Positions 1-13,460 of a DNA stretch of 64,000 nt are shown here, in pieces; the first letter of the stretch is position 1; each line of letters begins with the position of its first letter. The translations under genes were made by a program, and so were the position numbers. Under the pieces are notes generated by a model. The model searched no databases, had not been told where the DNA came from, and worked only from the letters and a program-made list of their open reading frames with translations. The stretch lies in NCBI GenBank assembly GCA_903861005.1, contig CAIOSP010000045.1, positions 62,001-126,000 on the forward strand. The letters run 5' to 3'. The stretch is from an uncultured Pseudomonadota bacterium (GTDB taxonomy: Bacteria; Myxococcota_A; UBA796; GCA-2862545).

Positions 1-732
1 CATGAGCTGGCGGATGTGGGCCTGATCGTTCTTGTAGTCGGAGGTGAGCGCGTACATCATCAGGTTGATGCCGAGCTTGACCGCCTCGCGGCGCTGAGCC
101 TCGCCGCCGGGGACGCAGGGGTAGCGGTAGGTGCCGGACTCGTCGCGATCGAGCGCGCCGGAGAGGTCGTTGCGGCTGTAGATCAGCGGGCACTGGTTGC
201 CCACCGTCACGCCTTCGAGCCACGCCTCATGGTCCACACGGCCCGGCGCGCCTTCCAGCAGAAAGAAGGCTCGGTGCACCGGGTGGTCGCCAGGGAGCGG
301 CGCGAGTGGGCGTGTCGGGAACAGCCGCTCGACCAGCGCCCGTACGGCGCTGTCCGCGGCCTTGGACTCGCCGCCGGTGGTGTCGTCGATCACCAGGAAG
401 CCGCCGTACGCGAGGAACTGCGACAGCTGCTCGATCGCCTCGTCGCCGGGGATCGCGAAGCCGCCGTCGACCAGCAGGACGCAGAACGGGTGCGCGAACA
501 GCGCGACGTCGTCGGGCTTGACCCACACGCTGCGCGGCTCGGCCTCGACCGAGGTGGACTGGACCAGATCGTAGAGCAGGCGCTTCCACGCGTCCGGTCG
601 GGACAGCGAGCCCGCGCCCAGGTCCAGCTCTGCGATGTCGACGCGGCTGGCTGCCCCGAAGGACAGCCCTCGCGCAGGCCACGCCAACAGCGCGCCCGCG
701 CCGAGCAGCAGGTTGCGACGCGTGAGCCTCAT
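1..732 (-). CDS. DUF4159 domain protein, Tat-type signal (3' end outside window)
   Basis: The reading frame is open from 732 down to the window edge, so at least 244 residues are present and the C-terminus is missing. It begins MRLTRRNLLLGAGALLAWP, a twin-arginine-like or Sec signal, so the protein is probably exported. The body (LLVDGGFAIPGDEA, YGGFLVIDDTTGG, HPVHRAFFLLEG) is typical of DUF4159 proteins, which have a ThuA/glutamine-amidotransferase-like fold. The start codon overlaps the stop of the upstream VWA gene (ATGA), so the two are probably translationally coupled. DUF4159 genes commonly follow MoxR-DUF58-BatA genes; the biochemical role is not established. Family call fairly sure, function unknown. 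Confidence 0.85.
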   Translation of the reverse strand, partial: MRLTRRNLLLGAGALLAWPARGLSFGAASRVDIAELDLGAGSLSRPDAWKRLLYDLVQSTSVEAEPRSVWVKPDDVALFAHPFCVLLVDGGFAIPGDEAIEQLSQFLAYGGFLVIDDTTGGESKAADSAVRALVERLFPTRPLAPLPGDHPVHRAFFLLEGAPGRVDHEAWLEGVTVGNQCPLIYSRNDLSGALDRDESGTYRYPCVPGGEAQRREAVKLGINLMMYALTSDYKNDQAHIRQLM

Positions 733-2765
733 GTGGCCGCCCCCGTGAACGCGGCGAGCAGCGCGCCGGCGAGCAACAGCACCATCGACAGGCCCATCGC
801 CGCCTCCGCCAGATCCTGGTGCCGCACGAACATCTCCGGGTCGAGCGCGGCCTCGACCGACGCCAGCGACTTGGTGCGCCGCACGTCGCTCTCCTCCGCG
901 TCTAGGTTGACCGCGACCCAGCCGACGCGCGGACCGTCCGTCACGCGGACCTCGTACGCACCCGGCTTGTCGGCGGTGAACACCGCGCGACCGGACTGAA
1001 GCGTGGCGCGCACGGCGCTGCCGTCGGGCCCGCGCACGTCGACGTCGCTGATGCCGTCCGAGAGCGGGACCTCGACCCGCGCGCCGATGGTGGCCTCCAC
1101 CCGCGCGACGGCGCCGTCGGACTCAGCGCCGAGCCAGCCCGCGATGCGCTGCGTCAGGGGCACGAAGGCGGCCTGGAGCGGCAGGTTGCTCCAGCCGAGG
1201 TCGATGCTGCTGGTCCAGACCAGCACGTGGCCCTGGCCCACGTCGCGCGAGACGAGCGCCGGCACGCCGCCGGTGAAGCGCAGCAGCGTGCGCACGTCGC
1301 CCGAGTCCGCGTACGGCTCAAGCGTCATCACGCGCCACGCGCCGATGTGGGTGAACGCACCCCGGCCGCCGCGCGCGAACGGCTCGAAGGGCGCGCGTGA
1401 GGTGTCGGGCAGCTCGAGCGGGACGGGCTCCTCGGCGCGGTCCGCTAGGCTCTCGGGGCCGCGGAAGGGCGACGGCAGGAGGCCCGCGAGCGCCGCGTTG
1501 TACCGATCGGCGGTGATGTTGTCCCCGACCGAGATCACGACCGAACCGCCGCGGCGGACGAAGTCACGCAGTCGCGCGCCGAACGGGCCTGGGTCCGCGA
1601 CGTTGGCCAGGAAGACCAGGCGGTGCGTGGTGGGATCGAGCGCGCCCAGGCCCTTGGGGCTGACGACCTCGGGGACGACGCCGTTGCTGGATCCGCCCCA
1701 CGGCGCGAGCGCGCGCTCCAGGAAGTACACCTCGGAGCGGACGGGCGTGTCGCCAGGGTCGCCGTCGACGATGAGCACGCGCGACGCGCCGACCTGCGGG
1801 AGGTGGAACCACCGCGAGTCGTCGAGCGCGAGGTCAGGGTCATCACAGGTGACGCGCCCGACGCCGCTGGCCGCCTGACGTGGGATGGTGACGCGCGCCT
1901 CGGCCTCGCCGCCCGCGGGCGCGTCGACGAACACCGGGATGCTCTGGCCGTCTGGGAGCACGACCTCACACGGCGCCTCGCGGGTGGTGGGGCCGTAGTT
2001 CGCCACGCGGAACGTGAGCTGGCCGCCCTCGATGCCGTCGCCGTAGTGCGCGGCGGTGACCGCCAGGTTGCGGGGCGGGTCGGCGTGGATGGGGACCGGC
2101 AGCACCGCGCTCCCGAGCGCGACGACGCGCCCGATCTCCTCCTCGGCCTCGGGGATCATCGACGGGCCGGCCTCGTCAGAGAAGACGAAGACCTCGCCCT
2201 TCTCGCCGGCCAGCAGGCGACGCGCGTCCAGCATGGCGCCGCGCAGATCACCCGCGCCCATGGTGGGCTGGAGGTCGGCGATGAGCGCGAGCACGCGGTT
2301 CTTGTCGTCGGTCATCTCGGTGGTGAGCGCGCGGCTGCTCGGCCCGAACGCCACGACGCCAAAGCGCGCGCCGTCCGGCGTGGACCGCACGCGCGCCGAC
2401 GCCTCGGCCTTGGCGCGCTCCAACAGCGTACTGCCGCCGTCGACCAGCGCCATCGAGAGCGACTGGTCGAGGAGCAGCACCATGCGACCGCTGCCCTCGA
2501 ACGTGGGGATGTCGCCCTTCCACGAGAGGCGCGGCGCGGCGGCGGCCGCGACGGCCAATAGGACGGCGGCGATGCGCAGCGCCATCAGCAGCACGTCCTT
2601 GAGCGCGCGACGACGGCGCAGGCGCTTCACCAGCCGCTGCACGAGCAGCATGGCGCCGTAGGCCAAGCGCTCGGTCGGCCGCTGGCGGGTGAGGTGCGCC
2701 AGGATCGGGAGCGCGACCAGCAGGGACAGCGCGGCGGCGAGCGGCGAGAGCAGCGACAGGCTCAA
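729..2765 (-). CDS. BatA-type VWA-domain membrane protein
   Basis: This 678-residue protein has an N-terminal BatA-like region: a hydrophobic segment at about residues 5-22 and a second at about 58-78. A von Willebrand factor A domain follows. Its metal-binding start is LLLDQSLSM, with Asp100, Ser102 and Ser104 forming the DxSxS MIDAS motif. A long extracytoplasmic region follows, with glutamine-amidotransferase-like stretches (LVFLANVADPGPF, VISVGDNITA) and a C-terminal hydrophobic helix ending the protein. It is coupled by ATGA overlaps to the DUF58 gene upstream and the DUF4159 gene downstream. In this family MoxR ATPases are thought to act on VWA proteins to assemble or activate targets. 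The specific target is unknown. Confidence 0.88.
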   Translation of the reverse strand: MSLSLLSPLAAALSLLVALPILAHLTRQRPTERLAYGAMLLVQRLVKRLRRRRALKDVLLMALRIAAVLLAVAAAAAPRLSWKGDIPTFEGSGRMVLLLDQSLSMALVDGGSTLLERAKAEASARVRSTPDGARFGVVAFGPSSRALTTEMTDDKNRVLALIADLQPTMGAGDLRGAMLDARRLLAGEKGEVFVFSDEAGPSMIPEAEEEIGRVVALGSAVLPVPIHADPPRNLAVTAAHYGDGIEGGQLTFRVANYGPTTREAPCEVVLPDGQSIPVFVDAPAGGEAEARVTIPRQAASGVGRVTCDDPDLALDDSRWFHLPQVGASRVLIVDGDPGDTPVRSEVYFLERALAPWGGSSNGVVPEVVSPKGLGALDPTTHRLVFLANVADPGPFGARLRDFVRRGGSVVISVGDNITADRYNAALAGLLPSPFRGPESLADRAEEPVPLELPDTSRAPFEPFARGGRGAFTHIGAWRVMTLEPYADSGDVRTLLRFTGGVPALVSRDVGQGHVLVWTSSIDLGWSNLPLQAAFVPLTQRIAGWLGAESDGAVARVEATIGARVEVPLSDGISDVDVRGPDGSAVRATLQSGRAVFTADKPGAYEVRVTDGPRVGWVAVNLDAEESDVRRTKSLASVEAALDPEMFVRHQDLAEAAMGLSMVLLLAGALLAAFTGAAT

Positions 2766-3769
2766 GGCATCTCCACCGGGCGCGTACCACCTTGAACGAG
2801 GTTGCGGATCACGCGCTCCATGGGCGCGTCGGTGGGCGCCGCGATGTACTGCCCGCCCCCGGCGAGCACGCCGGTGCGGACCTCACCCAGGTAGTGCTCG
2901 ACCACCGCGCGGAAGTCTTTGCGCACGCCCGGCGCGTCGATCGGCAGCTCCTCGCCGCCCTCCGGGCTGTAGAGCACGCGGGCCTCGGGCAAATCCAGGG
3001 TCAGCTCGCGGCGGTCGTAGAGGTGCACGAAGCGCAGGTCCGTGCCGCGCCGCCCGAACGAGCGCAGCGCGGGCAGCCAGTTCGCAGGCTCCTCCATGCC
3101 ATCCGTGATCACCGTCACCAGGCTGCGACGGCGCACGCGCGCGCCCACCTCGGTCAGCGTGCGAGACAGCTCGGCGCGACCGCCCGGCTTCACCGACGCC
3201 AGCGCGAGGAAGAGCAGCTGCAGGTGGCTGCGACCACCGCGCGGCGGCAGGTCCGACCAGCGCGCGCCCTCGCCCCCGATCAGCCGCAAGCCGACGGGCT
3301 CACCGTGGCGCTGGAACCAGTAGAGCATGGTGGCGGCGAGCGTGATCGCGTAGCCCGCCTTGGTGCCGGTCAGCTCGGGCAGGCCGCCCACGCCGGTCTC
3401 GCCGGTGCCGAGATCGCCGGACAGGTCGAGCACGACGGTGACGGGCAGTTCGGTCTCGGTCTCGTAGCGGCGCACGACCAGGCGATCGCTGCGCGCGAGC
3501 ACCTTCCAGTCCAGGCCGCGCGGGTCCATGCCGGGCGCGTACTCGCGGTAGTCGGCGAACTCGACCGCCTGACCGGTGCGCCGCGAGCGGTGCTCGCCCA
3601 GCACAATGCGGTCGGCGAGCACGCGCGCCGTGAAGTGCAGGTGCCGCACGCGGGCGAGGACGATCGGATCCCACGGGATGGGCCCGGGCGCACCCGCGCG
3701 GTCGTCGGTCTCGCGCGCGCCGCGCCCGAGCCAACCAGCGACCGCATCGATGGCGCGGGGGCCTGCCAC
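2762..3769 (-). CDS. DUF58 domain protein
   Basis: This 335-residue protein carries the DUF58 signature at about residues 70-125 (RRTGQAVEFADYREYAPG, then a conserved D-x-R-x-L-D-W-K core). A VWA-like segment beginning VVLDLSGDLG follows. DUF58 proteins are the usual middle member of MoxR-DUF58-VWA operons and are thought to be MoxR partners. It starts 4 bases after the moxR stop codon and overlaps the BatA-type gene by ATGA, so the three are one transcription unit. No signal peptide is seen, so the protein is probably cytoplasmic. Substrate and exact function are unknown. Confidence 0.9.
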   Translation of the reverse strand: MAGPRAIDAVAGWLGRGARETDDRAGAPGPIPWDPIVLARVRHLHFTARVLADRIVLGEHRSRRTGQAVEFADYREYAPGMDPRGLDWKVLARSDRLVVRRYETETELPVTVVLDLSGDLGTGETGVGGLPELTGTKAGYAITLAATMLYWFQRHGEPVGLRLIGGEGARWSDLPPRGGRSHLQLLFLALASVKPGGRAELSRTLTEVGARVRRRSLVTVITDGMEEPANWLPALRSFGRRGTDLRFVHLYDRRELTLDLPEARVLYSPEGGEELPIDAPGVRKDFRAVVEHYLGEVRTGVLAGGGQYIAAPTDAPMERVIRNLVQGGTRPVEMP

Positions 3770-3773
3770 GCGG

Positions 3774-4766
<993 letters not shown>

Positions 4767-4787: not shown

Positions 4788-6923
4788 CTACTCCGGCGCG
4801 CCACCTGCGGCCTTGCCGAGGAGCTGGTCGATGGTCGCCATCACCTCGGACAGATCACCCGCCCCGATGTGCACGTTGGCCACGGTCCCGTCCCGACCGA
4901 TGACCACGAGCATGGGGATGGACGACACGCCGTACGCGCGCCGCGCGCCGCCGTCCTCGATCGCCAGCGTCTGCTGGAAGAGCGTGCCCTTGTGCGCGTT
5001 GATCTCCGCGAACCGCTGCACGGTGGGCGCGGGCTCGTCGGTCAGCCCGATCACCACCAGGCCGCGCGCGCGCTCTTTCTGCTGCAGCTCCGACAGCTTG
5101 GGCATGACCGACACGCACGGCCCGCACCACGTGGCCCAGAAGTCGAGCACGACCACCTTGCCGCGCTGCTCCCGCAGCGTGATCGGCACGCCGGAGAGCG
5201 TGGCGGCCGTGAAGTCCGGCGCGGTGTGGCCCATCAGCGCGATGCGCGCGCCCGGCGGCGGGCTGGACGCCTCGCGCTCGGCGACGGCCGGGTCACGCGG
5301 GAGCTCGTAGGTGCCGCTGCGCTCATGGATGGGCTCGCGCTCCACATCCTCGCCGCCGCGCCGAAGCATCAGCAGCGCGGCGTCGCTCTGCTTCGTACGC
5401 GGGTCACCGAGGGCGGCGTAGAGGTCGCGCAGCTTGGCCTGGGTCGTGATGTCGAACGGGTCGAGGGAGACGGCGTGCGCGTAGGCGGCGGCCGCGTCGC
5501 GCGCGATCCCCCGCTCGGAGAGGATGCCGCCTAGGACGCGCCAGCCCGGCGAGAAGTCTGGGTAGTCGACGAGCGACGCGCGCAGCAAGTTCAGCGCGGC
5601 GTCCGGGTTGCCCGCGCTCGCGGTGGCGCGCGCCACACGGCTGGCCAGCAGCGGCGCGTTGGGCATGTCGGGGTCGACCGCCTGCGCGTACTCGGCGAGG
5701 GCGGCGGCCCATCGCTTCTGCTCGGCGAGCAGGTCGCCCAGGCGGAGCTTGTTCGCGAGGTCCTTGCGCTTGGCGAAGGACGGATCGAGCGCGGCGTCGT
5801 TTCCGCCGTCCAGCACCGTGGGGAGCGCGGCGATGCGGCGCGAGATGAGAGGCTGCTGGCGGATCCAGGCCTCCCACGCGGCGAGTAGCGTGGGGAAGTC
5901 GGTGAAGCCGCTCGCGGAGGCGAGCGCGGCCTCGGGGTCCTTGCCGGTCTTGATCGCCGCGAGCGTGTGCACCAGGACCTTGTCGTCGGACTTGCTGAAG
6001 CAGAACTGGACCAGCGTGGCCAGCTGCGCGTAGGCGCGACCGGCGCGCTCGGCGGAGGCGGCGACGTTGATCGAGCCGTCCGGATCGAACACCTTGATCT
6101 TGGCGATCGACTGGCGGATCTCCTCGAACGTGACGAGATCCTTGTTCTTCAGGCCCTCAGCGAGCCAGGCCTGTGACTCGGCGGAGAGCAGGAAGCGCGG
6201 GTCCTGCCAGCGGCCTTCGAGGTACTTGGCGATCCCCTCCTGCAGCCAGACCGGCGCGTTGTTGCCGGAGTCGTGGGCCACCATGAGGTGGATGTACTCG
6301 TGGCTGAGCGTGGAGCGCCAGTCGTAGCCGCGCCCGAGCGTGCGCGGCGACGTCACCAGCAGGCGCGTCCACTTGGAGAGCGCGATCACGCCCGTGGACT
6401 GCACGTCGTCCTGGGTGAGTGAGGACGCGGCGATGAACGAGCGACCGTCGGGGAACAGCTCGACGATGGTGTTGCCTGGCGGGATCTCGCCCAGCAGCGG
6501 GCCGACCACCTTGTCGGTGGCGATCAGGACGTCGCCGATCTCCGGCGCGATCAGCGCGTCCAGGCCGGGGCGGTAGCGCACGCGGAAGCGGCCCACCGGC
6601 GCCTCGACCCAGCCGGCCGTCGCGAACATCGTGCGCTCATAGAGGGCCGCGTCGCCGCCGCGGTCCGGAAAGCCCTTGGACACCGCGCGCTTCATCGTGT
6701 CGCTGGCGAGCGGGTAGTCGCCCGCCGAGAAGGCCACGAGCGCCGAAATCGCGAGCACGTTCGGGTCGTCCGAGGTGGACGCGCCGAGGCGCGTGAGGAT
6801 GGCCTGCGCGCACGCGACGTCCTGATCGTCGATGCAGACGCTGACCGCGCGCAGGTCCGCGTCGGGCGACGCCGCCGACGCCACGGGCCCGAGCGCCCAC
6901 CAGAGCAGGAAGGGCATCATCAC
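4788..6923 (-). CDS. Peptidase MA-like / TPR / thioredoxin (TlpA-like) fusion protein
   Basis: This 711-residue protein combines three modules. After a hydrophobic signal (residues 1-18), residues about 110-260 hold a zinc-peptidase domain with SHEYIHL (His208, Glu209, His212) and the downstream WLQEGIA (Glu229), the usual third ligand of the MA clan. Residues about 385-510 are TPR-like helices. Residues about 570-711 are a TlpA/ResA-type thioredoxin domain with WATWCGPC (Cys600, Cys603) and a cis-Pro context SSIPML. The whole probably works in the periplasm. Its start overlaps the stop of the DUF4175 gene (ATGA), so it belongs to the MoxR operon. Proteolysis plus disulfide chemistry in one chain suggests envelope protein quality control; that is inference. 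Confidence 0.85.
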   Translation of the reverse strand: MMMPFLLWWALGPVASAASPDADLRAVSVCIDDQDVACAQAILTRLGASTSDDPNVLAISALVAFSAGDYPLASDTMKRAVSKGFPDRGGDAALYERTMFATAGWVEAPVGRFRVRYRPGLDALIAPEIGDVLIATDKVVGPLLGEIPPGNTIVELFPDGRSFIAASSLTQDDVQSTGVIALSKWTRLLVTSPRTLGRGYDWRSTLSHEYIHLMVAHDSGNNAPVWLQEGIAKYLEGRWQDPRFLLSAESQAWLAEGLKNKDLVTFEEIRQSIAKIKVFDPDGSINVAASAERAGRAYAQLATLVQFCFSKSDDKVLVHTLAAIKTGKDPEAALASASGFTDFPTLLAAWEAWIRQQPLISRRIAALPTVLDGGNDAALDPSFAKRKDLANKLRLGDLLAEQKRWAAALAEYAQAVDPDMPNAPLLASRVARATASAGNPDAALNLLRASLVDYPDFSPGWRVLGGILSERGIARDAAAAYAHAVSLDPFDITTQAKLRDLYAALGDPRTKQSDAALLMLRRGGEDVEREPIHERSGTYELPRDPAVAEREASSPPPGARIALMGHTAPDFTAATLSGVPITLREQRGKVVVLDFWATWCGPCVSVMPKLSELQQKERARGLVVIGLTDEPAPTVQRFAEINAHKGTLFQQTLAIEDGGARRAYGVSSIPMLVVIGRDGTVANVHIGAGDLSEVMATIDQLLGKAAGGAPE

Positions 6924-9900
6924 TGGTGCACCAGCTCGTCGTAGTAGCGACGCTTCAGCACGCGGTACTCCTCAGGGACGTCGGCTTCCATGCCGCGCAA
7001 GAGCTCGTCACGGTACTGCTCGGGGGTGCGGAACTCCTCCGGCTCAGGAAGCTCGAAGCGCCGATGCTGGGGGTCGCCCTGCTCGTTCGGATCGCCGCCG
7101 CCGGACGGCTTGTCGCTCTGCTTGTCGCCGCCGCCGCCGCCCGAAGACATCTCGTCGGACTGCTGCTGCGACGCGGAGTTGGCGTCCTCGAGCGCCTTGA
7201 TGGCGTCACGGACGTGGCGAGCGGCGGCCTCGGCCGAGCCCTCGCCCTGCATGGCGTCACCGGCGTGGAGCTGCTCTGCGGCCGAGCCCATGCGCGACAC
7301 CGCGCCGTCGAGCGCGGGCTCCAGATCGCGCGGGGTGACGGTCATCTCCTGCGCGGCCTGCCGGGCCTTGGCGGCCGCCGCCGCCATCTGCACGCCGATC
7401 TCGCGCTGCTCGGTCTCGTGCGAGCGGGCGGCGACGCCGAGCGCGGGATCGCCTTGTGCGTCGCGGCGGCGAAGCTGCTCGAGCAGGTCCCCGATCGCGA
7501 CGGTCTCGCGCGTGATGGCCTCTGCGTCGGTGCGCGCCGACGGCGTGAGTGGCGTGCGGGAGGAGAACACCGTCACGCGGTCGAGGTATCCACCCCACGA
7601 CATCTGGGTGCTCATGGAGGTGCCCGCGGCGCCCTGATAGTCGCGGGCGCGGATGGCGTCGCGCAGCGCGGAGGCCTGGGAGAGCGCGTCGTCGGCGAGC
7701 GCGATCTCGTTGAAGCGACGGCCCGTCGTGTCCATGTCCTTGCGGTAGTCCGTCAGGTGCACGACGAGCGAGTCGGCCGTGTCCTGCGCGCGTCGCCAAA
7801 GCCCGTCGACGGCGCTGCGCCAGCCGGTGTCGCCCTTGTTGCGCTCGATGCGCAGGGCCTGCGCCAGCTTGGTCTCCGCCTCGGCCACCTTGCGGAGCAT
7901 CTCGATGGCGCTCTCGGCGCCGCCCTTGCCGCTCTTGGCGCGCGCCTTGCGGCGGTCGATCTCGTCGTGGATGGCCTGCGCCAGCTGGGTGCCACGGTCC
8001 GCCGTGCGCGCGGCGAGCGTGCGCGCGAGCGGGCGGTCGTTGGCCTGGAGCGAAGCCTTGACCTCGTCGACCAAGCGGTGGATCTCACCGGTGCGGTCGG
8101 ACACCAAGTCCTGCATGGTCTCGTCGCGCACGCCCTCCAGCGCCTTGTCGACGCCGGTGAGGAACTCGGAGAGCGACTCGAGCTGCAGCAGCAGGTCGCC
8201 CATGGGCACGTCGGCGCGGGCGGCAGCTGCCGACAGCGCCTTGGAGGCGTCGTCGAGCATGTCCGCCTTCTCGGCGAGCTCCTTGAGCGCGGCGGACGTG
8301 ATGAGCGCGTCCAGATGCAGGATGGCGATCTCGAGGCCGGAGATGGCGGACGCGCGGAAGGCGGCCACGGCGGCGACGCTCTCGGCGTTCGCGGCGGCGT
8401 CGGACTCGGCGACGAAGCTGACCTGCGTGTAGCGCACCAGCGTGCGGCCGTCCTCGAGCGCCGCGATGACCGGGACGAGCTCGCGGGTCGGGCTGGAGCG
8501 GGAGGTCCAGGAGCCGAGGAACGCCGACAGCGGCAGGTAGCGCGCGTTGACCGCCTCGCCCCACGACGCGTAGGCGCTGGCGGAGCGCCCGGGCGGGAAG
8601 GTCTCTTCGAGGAAGTCACCGAGCGCGTTGACCATGGCGGCGAGCAGCTCGCGACGGCGCGCCTCGTCCAGTCGAGCGACGCCGTCCCGGCCGAGCACGA
8701 GGATCTTAAGCGGCGCCGACCGGCCCACCTTGCTGCCGGAGATGGTGTCGTTGTCCCAAGCGGCGACGACGAGCTGGACGGTGGCGCCTTCGCGCATGCC
8801 GAGCGAGGCCGGGGTGCGCTGCACGACATCGGCCACGTCGCGGGTGCGCTCCTGCGGCGAGCGGATCGACGGGGTGACCTCGCGGCCGTCCACTTCGAAC
8901 ACGACGCGCGCCAACCCGTAGTCGTCCGATGCCGACAGCTCGACCGGCAGCGGCTTGTCGCTGGGCCACTCGATCACCGCGCCGGACTCGCCCGACACGT
9001 GCGCGGTGACCTCGGGCGCCAGGTCGGGCTCGGGGACGATCGGGAAGTGCTTGGACTCCTCGGTGTTGCCCTCGGCGTGGGTGAGGATCTTCCAGAAGCC
9101 CTTGTCCACGGTGATCAGGAACGAGCCGCTGATGCGGCGACCGTCCGCCACCGTCGCGTCGGTGGCTGCCTGGTCATAGGCGACGAGCGAGGCGCCGTCG
9201 ATCGGCGACGCGGTGCGCGCGACGACCTCCACCCGGGTGCCTGGGACCGCGTGGGCCTCGCCGGTGCTGTTCACGACCTCAACCGGCTCAAGCCCGGTGT
9301 AGTCCGGGTACACGTAGCGGAGCACCAGATCGCCGACGCGTGCCGGCGTCCCGGTGATGGCGGTCTCGCCCGTCTCCACCGCCGCGAGCGCGCCCGATCC
9401 GCCGAACCAGAAGCGCCACACGCCGCCGCCACCGCCCGGCCCGAGCAGCACGGCCAGCAGCGCCACGGCCCACACGACGCCCGCGCCAGCGCCCCAGCGC
9501 CTCACGCCCTTGGAGGGGTGGACCAGTTCGGGCTCATGCGCCGCCGAGAGATCCCACGCGCGCCGCGCGACCAGCCCCAGCAGCGCCGGCGACTCTGCCC
9601 CGCGCACGCCCTCAGCGTGGGTGACTGCCGTGACCAGGCGACCACGCAGCGCGGGCTCGCGGGCCTCCACCAGCCGGGCCTGACGGAGCGGATCCCCCGC
9701 CGCGGCCCACGCGCGGAACAGAGGACGACCGACGATGAACCAGCTGCCCAGGCCGCCGCCCAAGGTGAGCCAAGACGCTGCGGTGGCCCGGGGGACATTG
9801 GCCCACGCCACCACCGCCGCCGCGACAAGCGCCAGCGCGGCGAGCGCGAGGACGCGGACGAGCGAGGCGGCAACGAGCAGCGAGCGCTCCCGCCTTGCCA

Positions 9901-9949
9901 GCGCTGCGACGCGTTCGAGCACCCGAGCGAGCTCCGCGTTCATCCCCAT
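6920..9949 (-). CDS. DUF4175-like large membrane protein
   Basis: This 1009-residue protein has N-terminal transmembrane segments (about residues 27-50, 58-75 and 155-172). A long extracytoplasmic part follows, with Ig-like stretches (ITGTPARVGDLVLRYVYPDY) and extensive Glu/Arg/Ala-rich coiled-coil regions (about 560-900). The C-terminal tail is Gly/Ser/Asp-rich and then acidic (about 915-1009). The architecture matches DUF4175 proteins, which are often encoded beside MoxR-DUF58-BatA-DUF4159 genes. It is the first gene of the six-gene unit and lies 78 bp downstream of lexA on the same strand. Function unknown; a scaffold for the VWA/MoxR proteins is one possibility. Confidence 0.72.
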   Translation of the reverse strand: MGMNAELARVLERVAALARRERSLLVAASLVRVLALAALALVAAAVVAWANVPRATAASWLTLGGGLGSWFIVGRPLFRAWAAAGDPLRQARLVEAREPALRGRLVTAVTHAEGVRGAESPALLGLVARRAWDLSAAHEPELVHPSKGVRRWGAGAGVVWAVALLAVLLGPGGGGGVWRFWFGGSGALAAVETGETAITGTPARVGDLVLRYVYPDYTGLEPVEVVNSTGEAHAVPGTRVEVVARTASPIDGASLVAYDQAATDATVADGRRISGSFLITVDKGFWKILTHAEGNTEESKHFPIVPEPDLAPEVTAHVSGESGAVIEWPSDKPLPVELSASDDYGLARVVFEVDGREVTPSIRSPQERTRDVADVVQRTPASLGMREGATVQLVVAAWDNDTISGSKVGRSAPLKILVLGRDGVARLDEARRRELLAAMVNALGDFLEETFPPGRSASAYASWGEAVNARYLPLSAFLGSWTSRSSPTRELVPVIAALEDGRTLVRYTQVSFVAESDAAANAESVAAVAAFRASAISGLEIAILHLDALITSAALKELAEKADMLDDASKALSAAAARADVPMGDLLLQLESLSEFLTGVDKALEGVRDETMQDLVSDRTGEIHRLVDEVKASLQANDRPLARTLAARTADRGTQLAQAIHDEIDRRKARAKSGKGGAESAIEMLRKVAEAETKLAQALRIERNKGDTGWRSAVDGLWRRAQDTADSLVVHLTDYRKDMDTTGRRFNEIALADDALSQASALRDAIRARDYQGAAGTSMSTQMSWGGYLDRVTVFSSRTPLTPSARTDAEAITRETVAIGDLLEQLRRRDAQGDPALGVAARSHETEQREIGVQMAAAAAKARQAAQEMTVTPRDLEPALDGAVSRMGSAAEQLHAGDAMQGEGSAEAAARHVRDAIKALEDANSASQQQSDEMSSGGGGGDKQSDKPSGGGDPNEQGDPQHRRFELPEPEEFRTPEQYRDELLRGMEADVPEEYRVLKRRYYDELVHQ

Positions 9950-10027: not shown

Positions 10028-10663
10028 CTAGTGGACCCGACGCCACACACCGACAACGACGCCCAAGATCCGGCACTCGCCCACGTCAGAGCCGACGCGG
10101 ATGGGCTGCATGGCGGCGTTGGCGGGCTGCAGGATGAGCACGCCGCGCTCGCGGAACACGCGCTTCACCGTGGCCTCACCGTCCACCAGCACGGCGGCGA
10201 TCTCGCCGTCACGGCAGGTCTCAGCGCGACGGACGAACACGTAGTCGCCGTCCAGGATGCCGTCCTCGATCATCGACTCGCCGCGCACGACGAGGGCGAA
10301 CACGTCACCGCCCGACGGCAGCAGGCCGCGATCGATGCGGACAGTGGCTTCATGGTCTTCCACCGCCGCGATGGGCGTGCCCGCCGCGATGCGGCCGAGG
10401 ATGGGCACGCCGACCACGCCGGAGTCCTCAAGCTCGGTGCGGGCGTGCTTGGGCACGCGGAGCGACCGCGCCGCGCCCACGCCGCCGACACGCTCCAGGT
10501 AGCCCTTCTTCTCGAGCGCCTTCACGTGATCGCTCACGCCGTTGGTGCTGCGGATACCCAGGCTCTCGCCGATCTCGCGGAAGGACGGAGGGATGCCGTT
10601 TTGATCGTTCCAGGCGAGCATGAAGTTGAGGACTTCGCGCTGGCGAGGGGTGAGGTCATCCAT
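10028..10663 (-). CDS. lexA: LexA repressor
   Basis: This 211-residue SOS repressor and self-cleaving protease has an N-terminal winged helix-turn-helix (about residues 1-68; FREIGESLGI, NGVSDHVKALEKKGYL). The scissile Ala94-Gly95 bond sits in GRIAAG. The catalytic dyad is Ser130 (RGESM) and Lys167 (TVKR). Length and motif order match canonical LexA. It is preceded by a 17-bp match to the Myxococcus-type LexA box that overlaps the ribosome-binding region, so autoregulation is expected. The FHA protein gene lies upstream on the same strand and the DUF4175/MoxR operon begins 78 bp downstream. Read-through from lexA into that operon is possible but unproven. Confidence 0.97.
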   Translation of the reverse strand: MDDLTPRQREVLNFMLAWNDQNGIPPSFREIGESLGIRSTNGVSDHVKALEKKGYLERVGGVGAARSLRVPKHARTELEDSGVVGVPILGRIAAGTPIAAVEDHEATVRIDRGLLPSGGDVFALVVRGESMIEDGILDGDYVFVRRAETCRDGEIAAVLVDGEATVKRVFRERGVLILQPANAAMQPIRVGSDVGECRILGVVVGVWRRVH

Positions 10664-10673
10664 GGGGCGCGCT

Positions 10674-10690
10674 CCTGAACGAATGTGCGG
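10674..10690 (-). promoter_or_regulatory. Putative LexA box (Myxococcus-type)
   Basis: On the minus strand this reads CCGCACATTCGTTCAGG, ending 10 bases before the lexA start codon. Against the Myxococcus xanthus consensus as I recall it (CTRHAMRYBYGTTCAGS), 16 of 17 positions agree; only the second base differs. The site overlaps the CAGGAG ribosome-binding region, so LexA binding would block its own gene. No match to the E. coli or Gram-positive operator is evident here. Confidence 0.7.
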
Positions 10691-10740
10691 TGAACAGTAG
10701 TCCAGGTACCGTACCCCGTCAAGGCCAGACGAAGCCCCCC

Positions 10741-10757
10741 GCGCCGCCTAGCGGCGC
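10741..10757 (-). terminator. Hairpin after FHA protein gene, possible terminator
   Basis: GCGCCGC and GCGGCGC form a perfect 7-bp stem with a 3-base loop (CTA), about 30 bases past the FHA gene stop and upstream of lexA. No T-run follows on the minus strand (the following sequence is G-rich), so it is at best a weak or factor-dependent terminator. It might instead be a transcript-stabilising hairpin. Confidence 0.35.
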
Positions 10758-10785
10758 AAGTCAGTCCCCCGCCCCGCCAGTCCGT

Positions 10786-12567
10786 CTACGGCTTGGCGGT
10801 CGGGTCCGCAGGCGCCACCGGAGGCTCGACGCGCTCACGGTAGGCCATGCGCACGCGGAGCACGTCGATCTGGCCGTCCACGTCGATGCTCTCGACGCTG
10901 ACGCGGCCCTCGATGTGGTCGTCCATGTACGGGCTCAGCGCACGGGCGTACGGGTAGCGCGCCGGAGCGGCATCACCGCAGCCGATGTTGTGGATGGTCA
11001 GGAACTTGGAGTTGGCGCCGCAAGCCTTGGTGAACAGGCAGTGCCAGTCATTGGTGGTGACCTCAAGCTCGGAGCAGCCTTCCATGGGATAGCGACCCGG
11101 GCCGTCGATGCGCACGACCCTCGAGATGGGTGGCAGGGGCGCCGCGAACTCGGACGCGAGCAGGCGACGGCCCTCAGAGACCTCCACCTCTTCGGAGATC
11201 GGGTCGAAGATGCGGACCGGTCCTTCGAAGGCGATGCGCATGCTGCCAAGGCGGCGCTGGGGTGCCGCGCTCAGCTTGTCGTAGGCGGCGAGTTGGCCAC
11301 GATCCATGAACAGCTTGTCGGTGCCGCCGCCCATGTACACGGCGATGTCTTCCAGCAGGGCCTCGTAGCCCACGCCAGTGAAGGCGAGCATGCGGGGCAG
11401 GCCTTCGCCGAACTCGGCGTTGTAGGTCAGGCCCTCAGCCGTGAGATCGCCGATGCAGCCAACCGTCAGCGGGACGATCTCGCCGGACTCGGTCAGGACC
11501 TGGGCGCGCACGCCGGGGACGGCGTCTTCACACACAAGGTAGTGGATCGGCTCGACCACGCCGCGGTCCGCGAGGAAGCCGGCGAGGTTGCTGGGGCGGA
11601 TCAGCGTGAACAGGTAGGGCTCGATCGGGCCCTCGGTCACGACGCGCTTGGTGGTCGGCGGCGTCTTGCCCTTGGAGTTGGCCGGCGGCGGGATGGTGAC
11701 CTCCTTGGTGGGAGGCATCCAGGCGTACAGGCCGGCGTGCTCAACGATGTGGTAGCCGCCATCATTGAAGCGCAGGGTGGTGCCGGCGCAGTCCTGGTCC
11801 GGGAAGCCGTCCGACAGGTCGAACCCGCGGCAGATCTGCGGCATCTCGGAGCGGACGCGGCTCTTGTCGACGTAGCACTCGGCGGGCAGGCCCTCTTCGA
11901 GCGAGCGGGCCTTGTCCAAACAGTCGGCGTTGAGGTCGGAGATGTTCTTCCAGGAGCCGTCCGGGTTGAACGTGACCACCCGACGGCCACCCGGCCAGCG
12001 CAGCCAGAGCTCGTCCACGCCGTTGGCGTCGAAGTCCGTGACGCGCTCGACCTGGAGCTCGCGGTGGTCGACGCCGGTCTCACGGATGAAGGACGTGGGG
12101 ATCTCCAGCACGTCGGACTGGAAGCCCGCGCCCTGATTCACCGCCGTCGCCCAGCGGATCTTGGGGTCGTAGGAGACCTCGATGCTGTCCATGAAGGACC
12201 GCACGCCCAAGTACAGGATGAGCAGCGCCGCGGCGGCGCCGACGATGCGGAGCGCGGCCGAGCGCGGACGCTCGCGGACCTCAATGTCGGTCTCGCCCAT
12301 GCGGATGCGCATGCCGGGGACCAGACACACGGCCTTGTCGAGGAGGCGGACGTCGTTCACGTACGTGCCGGTGGCCGAGGACAGGTCCTCGATCCAGTAG
12401 CGGTCGCCTTCCCACGTGATCTCGGAATGGTTGAGGCTGACCAGCGGGTCGATCAGCTGCATGCCCTTGGACGACCGCCCGAGCAGCAACGGCTCATTGG
12501 GCCGGAGCTGCACGACTTGGCCTTCAAGCGGCCCGGTCAGAACAACCAGGTCGAGCGCTGCGGACAT
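10786..12567 (-). CDS. FHA-domain membrane protein
   Basis: The chosen ATG at 12567 has a GAGGTGG ribosome-binding site; an in-frame extension upstream to 12696 has none and reads as non-coding. The 593-residue product has an N-terminal forkhead-associated domain (about residues 22-95) with phosphothreonine-binding features Gly30-Arg31, Ser44-x-x-His47 and TGTYVN (66-71). A single transmembrane helix follows at about 105-124. A large probably extracytoplasmic region of about 460 residues contains several Cys pairs, and I do not recognise it. The protein probably links Ser/Thr-kinase signalling in the cytoplasm to an envelope function. No kinase gene lies in the window. Confidence 0.85.
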   Translation of the reverse strand: MSAALDLVVLTGPLEGQVVQLRPNEPLLLGRSSKGMQLIDPLVSLNHSEITWEGDRYWIEDLSSATGTYVNDVRLLDKAVCLVPGMRIRMGETDIEVRERPRSAALRIVGAAAALLILYLGVRSFMDSIEVSYDPKIRWATAVNQGAGFQSDVLEIPTSFIRETGVDHRELQVERVTDFDANGVDELWLRWPGGRRVVTFNPDGSWKNISDLNADCLDKARSLEEGLPAECYVDKSRVRSEMPQICRGFDLSDGFPDQDCAGTTLRFNDGGYHIVEHAGLYAWMPPTKEVTIPPPANSKGKTPPTTKRVVTEGPIEPYLFTLIRPSNLAGFLADRGVVEPIHYLVCEDAVPGVRAQVLTESGEIVPLTVGCIGDLTAEGLTYNAEFGEGLPRMLAFTGVGYEALLEDIAVYMGGGTDKLFMDRGQLAAYDKLSAAPQRRLGSMRIAFEGPVRIFDPISEEVEVSEGRRLLASEFAAPLPPISRVVRIDGPGRYPMEGCSELEVTTNDWHCLFTKACGANSKFLTIHNIGCGDAAPARYPYARALSPYMDDHIEGRVSVESIDVDGQIDVLRVRMAYRERVEPPVAPADPTAKP

Positions 12568-12683
12568 ACCCACCCACCTCGGAGCGCCACGTTCGTACCT
12601 TACTCTACGCTCGGACACAAGGGGTGACGGGCTTGCGTCGTGTCTCAGGATGCGCGATGTCGTTGGAATCGCAGGAGTGAACG

Positions 12684-13460
12684 ATGGCGGTGGCAAAGCG
12701 GAAGAGTGCGTCCGACGTGGGGCGCTTCCTCCGCACTCCGGGTCCGACGGGGCGCGGAAGGCGCGTCGTGCTGGCTCTTTTCGTGCTGTACATGGTCGAG
12801 CTCGTCGCGCAGGGCGTGGGGCTGCCCGTCGCGTTGCTCCTCCGCGCGCCCATGAGCGGCGCGGCCGGCCATGACCTGATGATGTCGTGGAACAACCTGA
12901 CCGGCCTGGCGCTCCAGCCGTCCTCCGCGGGGGGAGTCCCCAACACGCTGTTCGCCCTGTTCGCGGTCTACATGCTGTGGCCGGGTCTGGAGCAGCTGCT
13001 CGGCCTGCGCCGCCTGCTCGAGTCGCTCGCGTTCATGGTGCTCGGCGGTCTGCTGGTCGTGAACACGGTCGACGCGCTCGTCGCCTACGGCGGCGTGGGC
13101 CTGGGTCGCGCCTTCCTGGGCGGGTGGGCGCCGCTGCTGATCGGTACGCTGTGCCTGTTCGGCCTGCTCAACCCCAGCGCGAACATCTTGGTTTACTTCG
13201 TCATTCCCGTGCCGATGTGGGTGTTCACCTGGGGGTCGTTGGCGGTCGCGCTGATCGGCGGCCTCGCCGCGTTCGGTAGCGGAGAAGACATGCTGTATCC
13301 GGCACAAGCGCTCGGAATCTGGCTCGGCGCCTACGCGTGGTACAGCGCACGCGGCCCTGGCGGCCGTCGCCGTTACCTCAAGTCTGAGGCCACGAAGATC
13401 GAGCGCCAGCTCACCCGCCTGCGCGTTCTGCCCGGCGGCCGCGACGAGACCTTCCACTGA
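12684..13460 (+). CDS. Polytopic membrane protein, rhomboid-like layout without catalytic motifs
   Basis: This 258-residue protein has a basic N-terminus and about six hydrophobic segments (roughly residues 27-50, 85-103, 107-128, 137-160, 165-190 and 208-225), then a basic cytoplasmic tail. The layout resembles rhomboid/derlin-type proteins, but the GxSG serine and the partner histidine motif are not seen, so protease activity is not supported. The ATG has AGGAG seven bases upstream. It is divergent from the FHA protein gene (116 bp between start codons), so that gap probably holds both promoters. Function unknown. Confidence 0.7.
   Translation: MAVAKRKSASDVGRFLRTPGPTGRGRRVVLALFVLYMVELVAQGVGLPVALLLRAPMSGAAGHDLMMSWNNLTGLALQPSSAGGVPNTLFALFAVYMLWPGLEQLLGLRRLLESLAFMVLGGLLVVNTVDALVAYGGVGLGRAFLGGWAPLLIGTLCLFGLLNPSANILVYFVIPVPMWVFTWGSLAVALIGGLAAFGSGEDMLYPAQALGIWLGAYAWYSARGPGGRRRYLKSEATKIERQLTRLRVLPGGRDETFH

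Follow-up and report, generated by a model that had tools for sequence, protein, structure and literature searches.

A zinc peptidase-TPR protein of Bat-like MoxR operons bearing a lineage-specific thioredoxin fusion

The DNA analysed here, a window of 64,000 nucleotides, contains a gene whose predicted exported product combines a gluzincin-type zinc peptidase, flanking TPR regions and a C-terminal thioredoxin domain in one chain. This peptidase-TPR-thioredoxin arrangement is a new domain architecture within the tools and open-access papers searched. By sequence comparison, its peptidase-TPR core is an old and widespread part of the operon in which the gene lies and is far older than the thioredoxin, which is a lineage-specific, recent addition and not a defining part of that operon. 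The original prediction had placed zinc-peptidase, TPR and CGPC thioredoxin modules in a single protein beside MoxR, DUF58, VWA and DUF4175 genes. Both claims are borne out, the first by Pfam searches, motifs and a structural model, the second by closely packed neighbours that are all on the minus strand, though the DUF4175 assignment is weak. Since they share a strand and overlap or are spaced by a few base pairs, the five genes of the window form a tight unit:

6920 to 9949, minus strand: DUF4175-like membrane protein gene, its stop overlapping the start of the fusion gene
4788 to 6923, minus strand: peptidase-TPR-thioredoxin fusion gene, an ORF of 711 amino acids from a GTG at 6923
3774 to 4766, minus strand: MoxR AAA+ ATPase gene, 21 bp downstream of the fusion gene
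2762 to 3769, minus strand: DUF58 gene, 4 bp after moxR
729 to 2765, minus strand: BatA/VWA membrane protein gene (two_anch N-terminus plus VWA), overlapping the DUF58 gene

The first of these proteins is called DUF4175-like because its Pfam score, 20 bits, is under the cut-off of 27.3. The fusion gene itself is an uninterrupted frame of 711 codons with no internal stops, and its features are as follows:

6920 and 6917, minus strand: alternative in-frame ATG starts
6870 to 6923, minus strand: predicted signal peptide, residues 1-18, hydrophobic, read by eye with low model confidence
6621 to 6866, minus strand: TPR-like N-terminal helical hairpins, residues 20-101, from the AlphaFold model
6810 to 6836, minus strand: C30 and C38, a probable disulfide, in 31 of 34 homologues of the order
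5853 to 6611, minus strand: gluzincin peptidase domain, residues 105-357 (Pfam, model, Foldseek)
6288 to 6302, minus strand: HEYIH zinc/catalytic motif, residues 208-212, with H, E and H invariant in 77 homologues
6237 to 6239, minus strand: E229, third zinc ligand, within WLQEGIA (residues 226-232), invariant in 77 homologues
5358 to 5771, minus strand: C-terminal TPR array, residues 385-522 (Pfam and model)
5244 to 5357, minus strand: linker, residues 523-560, with H533, G537 and P542 in 13 of 13 fused proteins
4806 to 5234, minus strand: TlpA/ResA-type thioredoxin domain, residues 564-706 (Pfam, model, Foldseek)
5115 to 5126, minus strand: CGPC redox motif, residues 600-603, in 13 of 13 fused proteins
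4914 to 4916, minus strand: P670, the cis-proline position of the thioredoxin fold, in 12 of the 12 fused proteins that are long enough

Homologues of the protein begin with typical Sec-like signal sequences, as judged by eye, and several Pfam TPR models match it at about residues 394-500. Domain searches recovered both the peptidase and the thioredoxin above curated Pfam cut-offs. Structure prediction, which the original prediction had proposed as a check, gave a full-chain model with a mean pLDDT of 91.0 and a pTM of 0.77, values that do not fix the relative placement of the domains, and Foldseek searches recognised both catalytic folds.

Gluzincins with an HExxH motif and a downstream glutamate are zinc peptidases. 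In the fusion protein, the Pfam model Peptidase_MA_2 matches residues 202-355 (E 1.3e-8; 35.3 bits against a cut-off of 32.4), and the same model (PF13485) matches 20 of 20 homologues with E values of 0.01 or better. As the H, E and H of the motif and the glutamate ligand do not vary across 77 sequences, the peptidase is very likely to be active throughout the core proteins. The predicted structure of this domain (pLDDT 94.8) retrieved M1 aminopeptidases and the peptidase domains of clostridial collagenases (M9), i.e. gluzincins, in Foldseek searches; a sequence search of solved structures with the peptidase gave no good match (best E 0.55). Thus, the domain is like the M1 and M9 gluzincins of the MA(E) clan in its HExxH...E signature and fold, but differs from them in being flanked by TPRs on both sides, and its family-level naming ends at Peptidase_MA_2. 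Besides the copy in the operon, many genomes, G000 included, contain another Peptidase_MA_2-like match.

TlpA/ResA-type proteins are reductases supplied by DsbD or CcdA. The C-terminal part of the fusion protein is matched by AhpC-TSA at residues 565-682 (E 1.6e-18) and by Redoxin (E 5.5e-17), the two models together covering residues 565-690, and it has the Redoxin/AhpC-TSA fold, CxxC and cis-proline by which TlpA/ResA-type oxidoreductases are recognised. Its nearest solved relatives are DsbE/ResA-type proteins, and Foldseek groups the model with ResA/DsbE-type oxidoreductases: the fold, WCGPC and cis-proline are common to TlpA/ResA/DsbE thiol reductases such as PDB 4nmu and 3gl3, at about 23-32% identity. 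Those proteins are usually free-standing or membrane-anchored single domains, whereas here the domain is fused behind a peptidase-TPR chain. It scores under every cut-off of the NCBIfam equivalogs for ResA, TlpA and DsbE, and we therefore assign it a related fold and motif and no membership in a named family. The idea that the protein might isomerise disulfides is not favoured: the domain has the fold and motif of the reducing TlpA/ResA proteins, the chain contains no N-terminal dimerisation domain like that of DsbC/DsbG, and a DsbD with a C-terminal thioredoxin domain is encoded elsewhere in the window's genome. A DsbD-type membrane domain was found in 19 of 21 genomes of the window's family; none was found in the fusion-bearing draft genome G006.

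Among the 20 family homologues read at their loci, 13 are fused and seven unfused; a further genome of this family, G005, lacks the core. The window's genome is a draft of 223 contigs, and an assembly or gene-calling artefact merging two genes might be imagined, but the fusion recurs with intact motifs in ten genera (13 genomes), and the operon order is mostly the same. Independent assemblies thus refute this explanation, to which we attach a negligible probability. WCGPC is present in all the fused proteins, as is the cis-proline in all that extend so far. In an alignment of 38 relatives, the full chain is confined to part of one family, and elsewhere only residues 1 to about 528 are represented. 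When the thioredoxin was omitted, a tree of the core did not reject the fused proteins as a single clade (p-AU 0.61) and reached a better likelihood under this constraint than in an unconstrained search; neither did a tree of the thioredoxin alone, which has few columns (p-AU 0.94). The thioredoxin was probably fused to the C-terminus once, in one lineage. Between two species, dN/dS is low in all domains (0.026/0.185 for the thioredoxin and 0.014/0.195 for the peptidase), and strong constraint acts on the catalytic motifs of both domains, to judge from the sequences.

An origin by gene splitting was rejected, the unfused relatives having no free thioredoxin gene adjoining the core gene. In five of these seven, moxR lies directly downstream; of the other two, G003 has an inserted block on the opposite strand and G015 reaches a contig end. 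In f3, the core gene is followed by an inserted SDR gene or lipoprotein-like ORF. Unrelated genes separate the core gene from moxR in some lineages (L152:6457-7467, L162:6417-7268 and L144:10553-15511), those in L152, L162 and L144 being a lipoprotein-like ORF, an SDR and a PurL-like block on the opposite strand. A proposed tie between C308 and the fusion was discarded, for the counts agreed (13) but the genomes differed.

Profile search located the core in 200 of the 285 genomes that represent the phylum, which the nearest named matches suggest to be Myxococcota, and the copy is almost always single. This wider spread was measured with the core profile; a search of contigs for related loci gave matches to the thioredoxin domain only, which is also all that the listed plasmid matches cover. 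The same domain order was recovered in 13 of 20 family homologues, but in none of 59 core loci outside the window's family (20 in other families of the class, 39 in the rest of the phylum). Being restricted to one family, the thioredoxin cannot by itself tell what the widespread operon acts on. The original prediction, which saw in the fusion a clue to that target, consequently stands in a modified form: the thioredoxin is lineage-specific, and the conserved member is the peptidase-TPR core.

The conserved gene order is DUF4175-like, core, MoxR, DUF58 and BatA. With moxR, DUF58 and BatA/VWA in tandem and the core as TPR partner, this is a Bat-like MoxR operon; Pfam scans of the operon genes gave no match similar to BatD, and it is not a Bat operon in the strict Bacteroides-type sense. 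At 38 of the 39 loci of the class there is a DUF4175-like gene upstream, and at 35 of 39 a moxR downstream (32 within 400 bp). For the rest of the phylum the corresponding counts are 35 of 39 and 24 of 39 (23 within 400 bp), some of the misses being contig ends. At most loci of the class moxR is thus adjacent, but in several families it is not. Across 40 chosen genomes of the phylum, the DUF4175-like gene was found in 19 of 20 that bear the core and in none of 20 that lack it (Fisher p 3e-10, a statistic that ignores kinship). The core therefore goes with the DUF4175-like gene more closely than with moxR. The fused gene of G013 has moved away from the operon, which is otherwise intact as FHA-LexA-DUF4175-MoxR-DUF58-BatA, and the DUF4175-like gene and moxR have become neighbours, about a dozen bases separating their aligned ends (L139:8753-10804 and L246:2811-9779). 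This indicates that tight coupling is unnecessary, the product being retained and able to work in trans. Genes for an FHA membrane protein and LexA lie upstream in most loci of the family (window 10028-12696; L132-L150), with lexA inverted in L137, L143, L144, L147, L148 and L150. The region yielded no sigma-70-type promoter, a result of little weight in a high-GC genome.

Since both catalytic motif sets are strongly constrained, a combination of cutting and thiol chemistry in the envelope is plausible. With roughly even confidence, we propose from sequence and model that the protein is an exported envelope quality-control factor of the Bat-like MoxR operon. Its TPR parts would capture envelope proteins that are unfolded or unassembled, for cleavage at the gluzincin site. 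In the lineage with the fusion, the TlpA/ResA-type domain would reduce disulfides, or oxidised thiols, of the bound substrate on the same scaffold, rendering it cleavable or refoldable, with the DsbD of the genome, encoded at another place, as electron source. On the cytoplasmic side MoxR and DUF58, and in the membrane the VWA protein and the DUF4175-like protein, may act in assembly or control of the complex. Several observations count against this proposal: no DsbD in the draft genome G006, the fused gene outside the operon in G013, the absence of the thioredoxin from most operons, the frequent non-adjacency of moxR outside the class, and a bat deletion in Leptospira biflexa that had neither a growth nor an oxidative phenotype (PMC3557215).

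A different role for the thioredoxin would be to serve its own protein or a dedicated partner, as a redox switch on the peptidase that keeps C30-C38 or a cysteine of a DUF4175/BatA complex reduced. The fusion does bring the thioredoxin and a cysteine pair into one chain, and C30 and C38 are jointly missing from G008 and G017, two genomes of one genus, as would be expected of a disulfide. This joint loss points to a bond between two N-terminal helices, and C30-C38 is a probable structural disulfide. However, the pair is present across the order where there is no thioredoxin, and G008 and G017 retain the thioredoxin without the pair, so that the two are independent; a role of the pair as target of the thioredoxin is unsupported, and we consider such a switch unlikely. 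TlpA, ResA and CcmG relatives are known to deliver reducing equivalents to cysteines of exported proteins, and the fusion protein could likewise be a maturation factor that supplies the target cysteines of specific exported metallo- or thiol proteins, such as cytochromes or copper proteins, in the way that MoxR proteins activate dedicated enzymes. This would agree with the similarity of its TPRs to the CcmH/CycH TPR model, and with the view of MoxR proteins as chaperone-like factors that mature specific, dedicated complexes (PMC3893208). It is rendered rather improbable by the absence of cytochrome biogenesis or metal genes from the operon, by the TPR_CcmH score of 40.1, which is under the cut-off of 42, and by the lack of the thioredoxin in most operons.

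Escherichia coli BepA, an exported M48 peptidase-TPR protein, shares with the fusion protein, itself predicted to be exported, the layout of a zinc peptidase with TPRs, and in cells with non-functional BepA an LptD intermediate with unrearranged disulfides accumulates (PMC8423444). A BepA-like factor in outer-membrane protein assembly (LptD/BamA, with disulfide rearrangement), to which the thioredoxin would contribute the thiol step, might be considered on these grounds. Yet BepA belongs to a different peptidase family and has neither a thioredoxin nor a MoxR operon. The fusion protein has no M48 Pfam match, which led us to reject membership in the BepA family; the NCBIfam BepA model scores 16.2 bits against 570, through the TPR part alone; and the peptidase matches M1/M9 folds, with BepA absent among the best 50 Foldseek matches listed. 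We accordingly give this alternative little credence. Far less probable still is a role in defence, as a MoxR-vWA conflict system whose effector would be the peptidase. MoxR-vWA pairs with peptidases are known in such systems (PMC7159879) and there is a weak bpMoxR match, but PADLOC matches none of the five genes, and the operon is near-universal, ordered and mostly single-copy across whole classes, unlike a patchy island. Nor did the Pfam scan detect a VMAP/iSTAND domain as third component.

The quality-control role that we favour bears on the Bat/MoxR operons of Bacteroides, Leptospira, Borrelia and Francisella, with which the present operon shares the order MoxR, DUF58, BatA/VWA and a TPR protein. 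Those operons have simple TPR Bat proteins, whereas here there is a DUF4175-like gene and a peptidase-TPR protein, no BatD is seen, and one lineage has the thioredoxin fusion. The question of what these operons do dates from 1999: for the Bat proteins of B. fragilis, the proposal was that they reduce periplasmic proteins that have become oxidised, or else export reducing power, the Bacteroides mutant being partly rescued by reducing agents, against which stands the full bat deletion in L. biflexa without effect (both in PMC3557215). A Rhizobium moxR of the MRP type is important for membrane integrity and cell shape (PMC3893208), and AdvA, a DUF4175-domain protein, is a division protein in Acinetobacter (PMC7481262). 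Read as a Rosetta stone for Bat-type MoxR operons, the fusion would suggest that their TPR partner handles oxidised or mis-disulfide-bonded envelope proteins and that the core and the DUF4175-like protein form an uncharacterised envelope proteostasis machine, reduction and cleavage having been merged in one lineage; we offer this as a tentative and somewhat doubtful extension.

A conserved reductase domain on the scaffold protein of the operon, even in one lineage, speaks independently, if indirectly, for the thiol hypothesis, which becomes testable because one chain carries two active sites that can be mutated one at a time. The general claim about the operon has to rest on the peptidase-TPR core and no longer on the fusion, the thioredoxin serving as a lineage-specific clue, and the phylum-wide peptidase-TPR protein and its DUF4175-like partner offer a conserved pair to work on.
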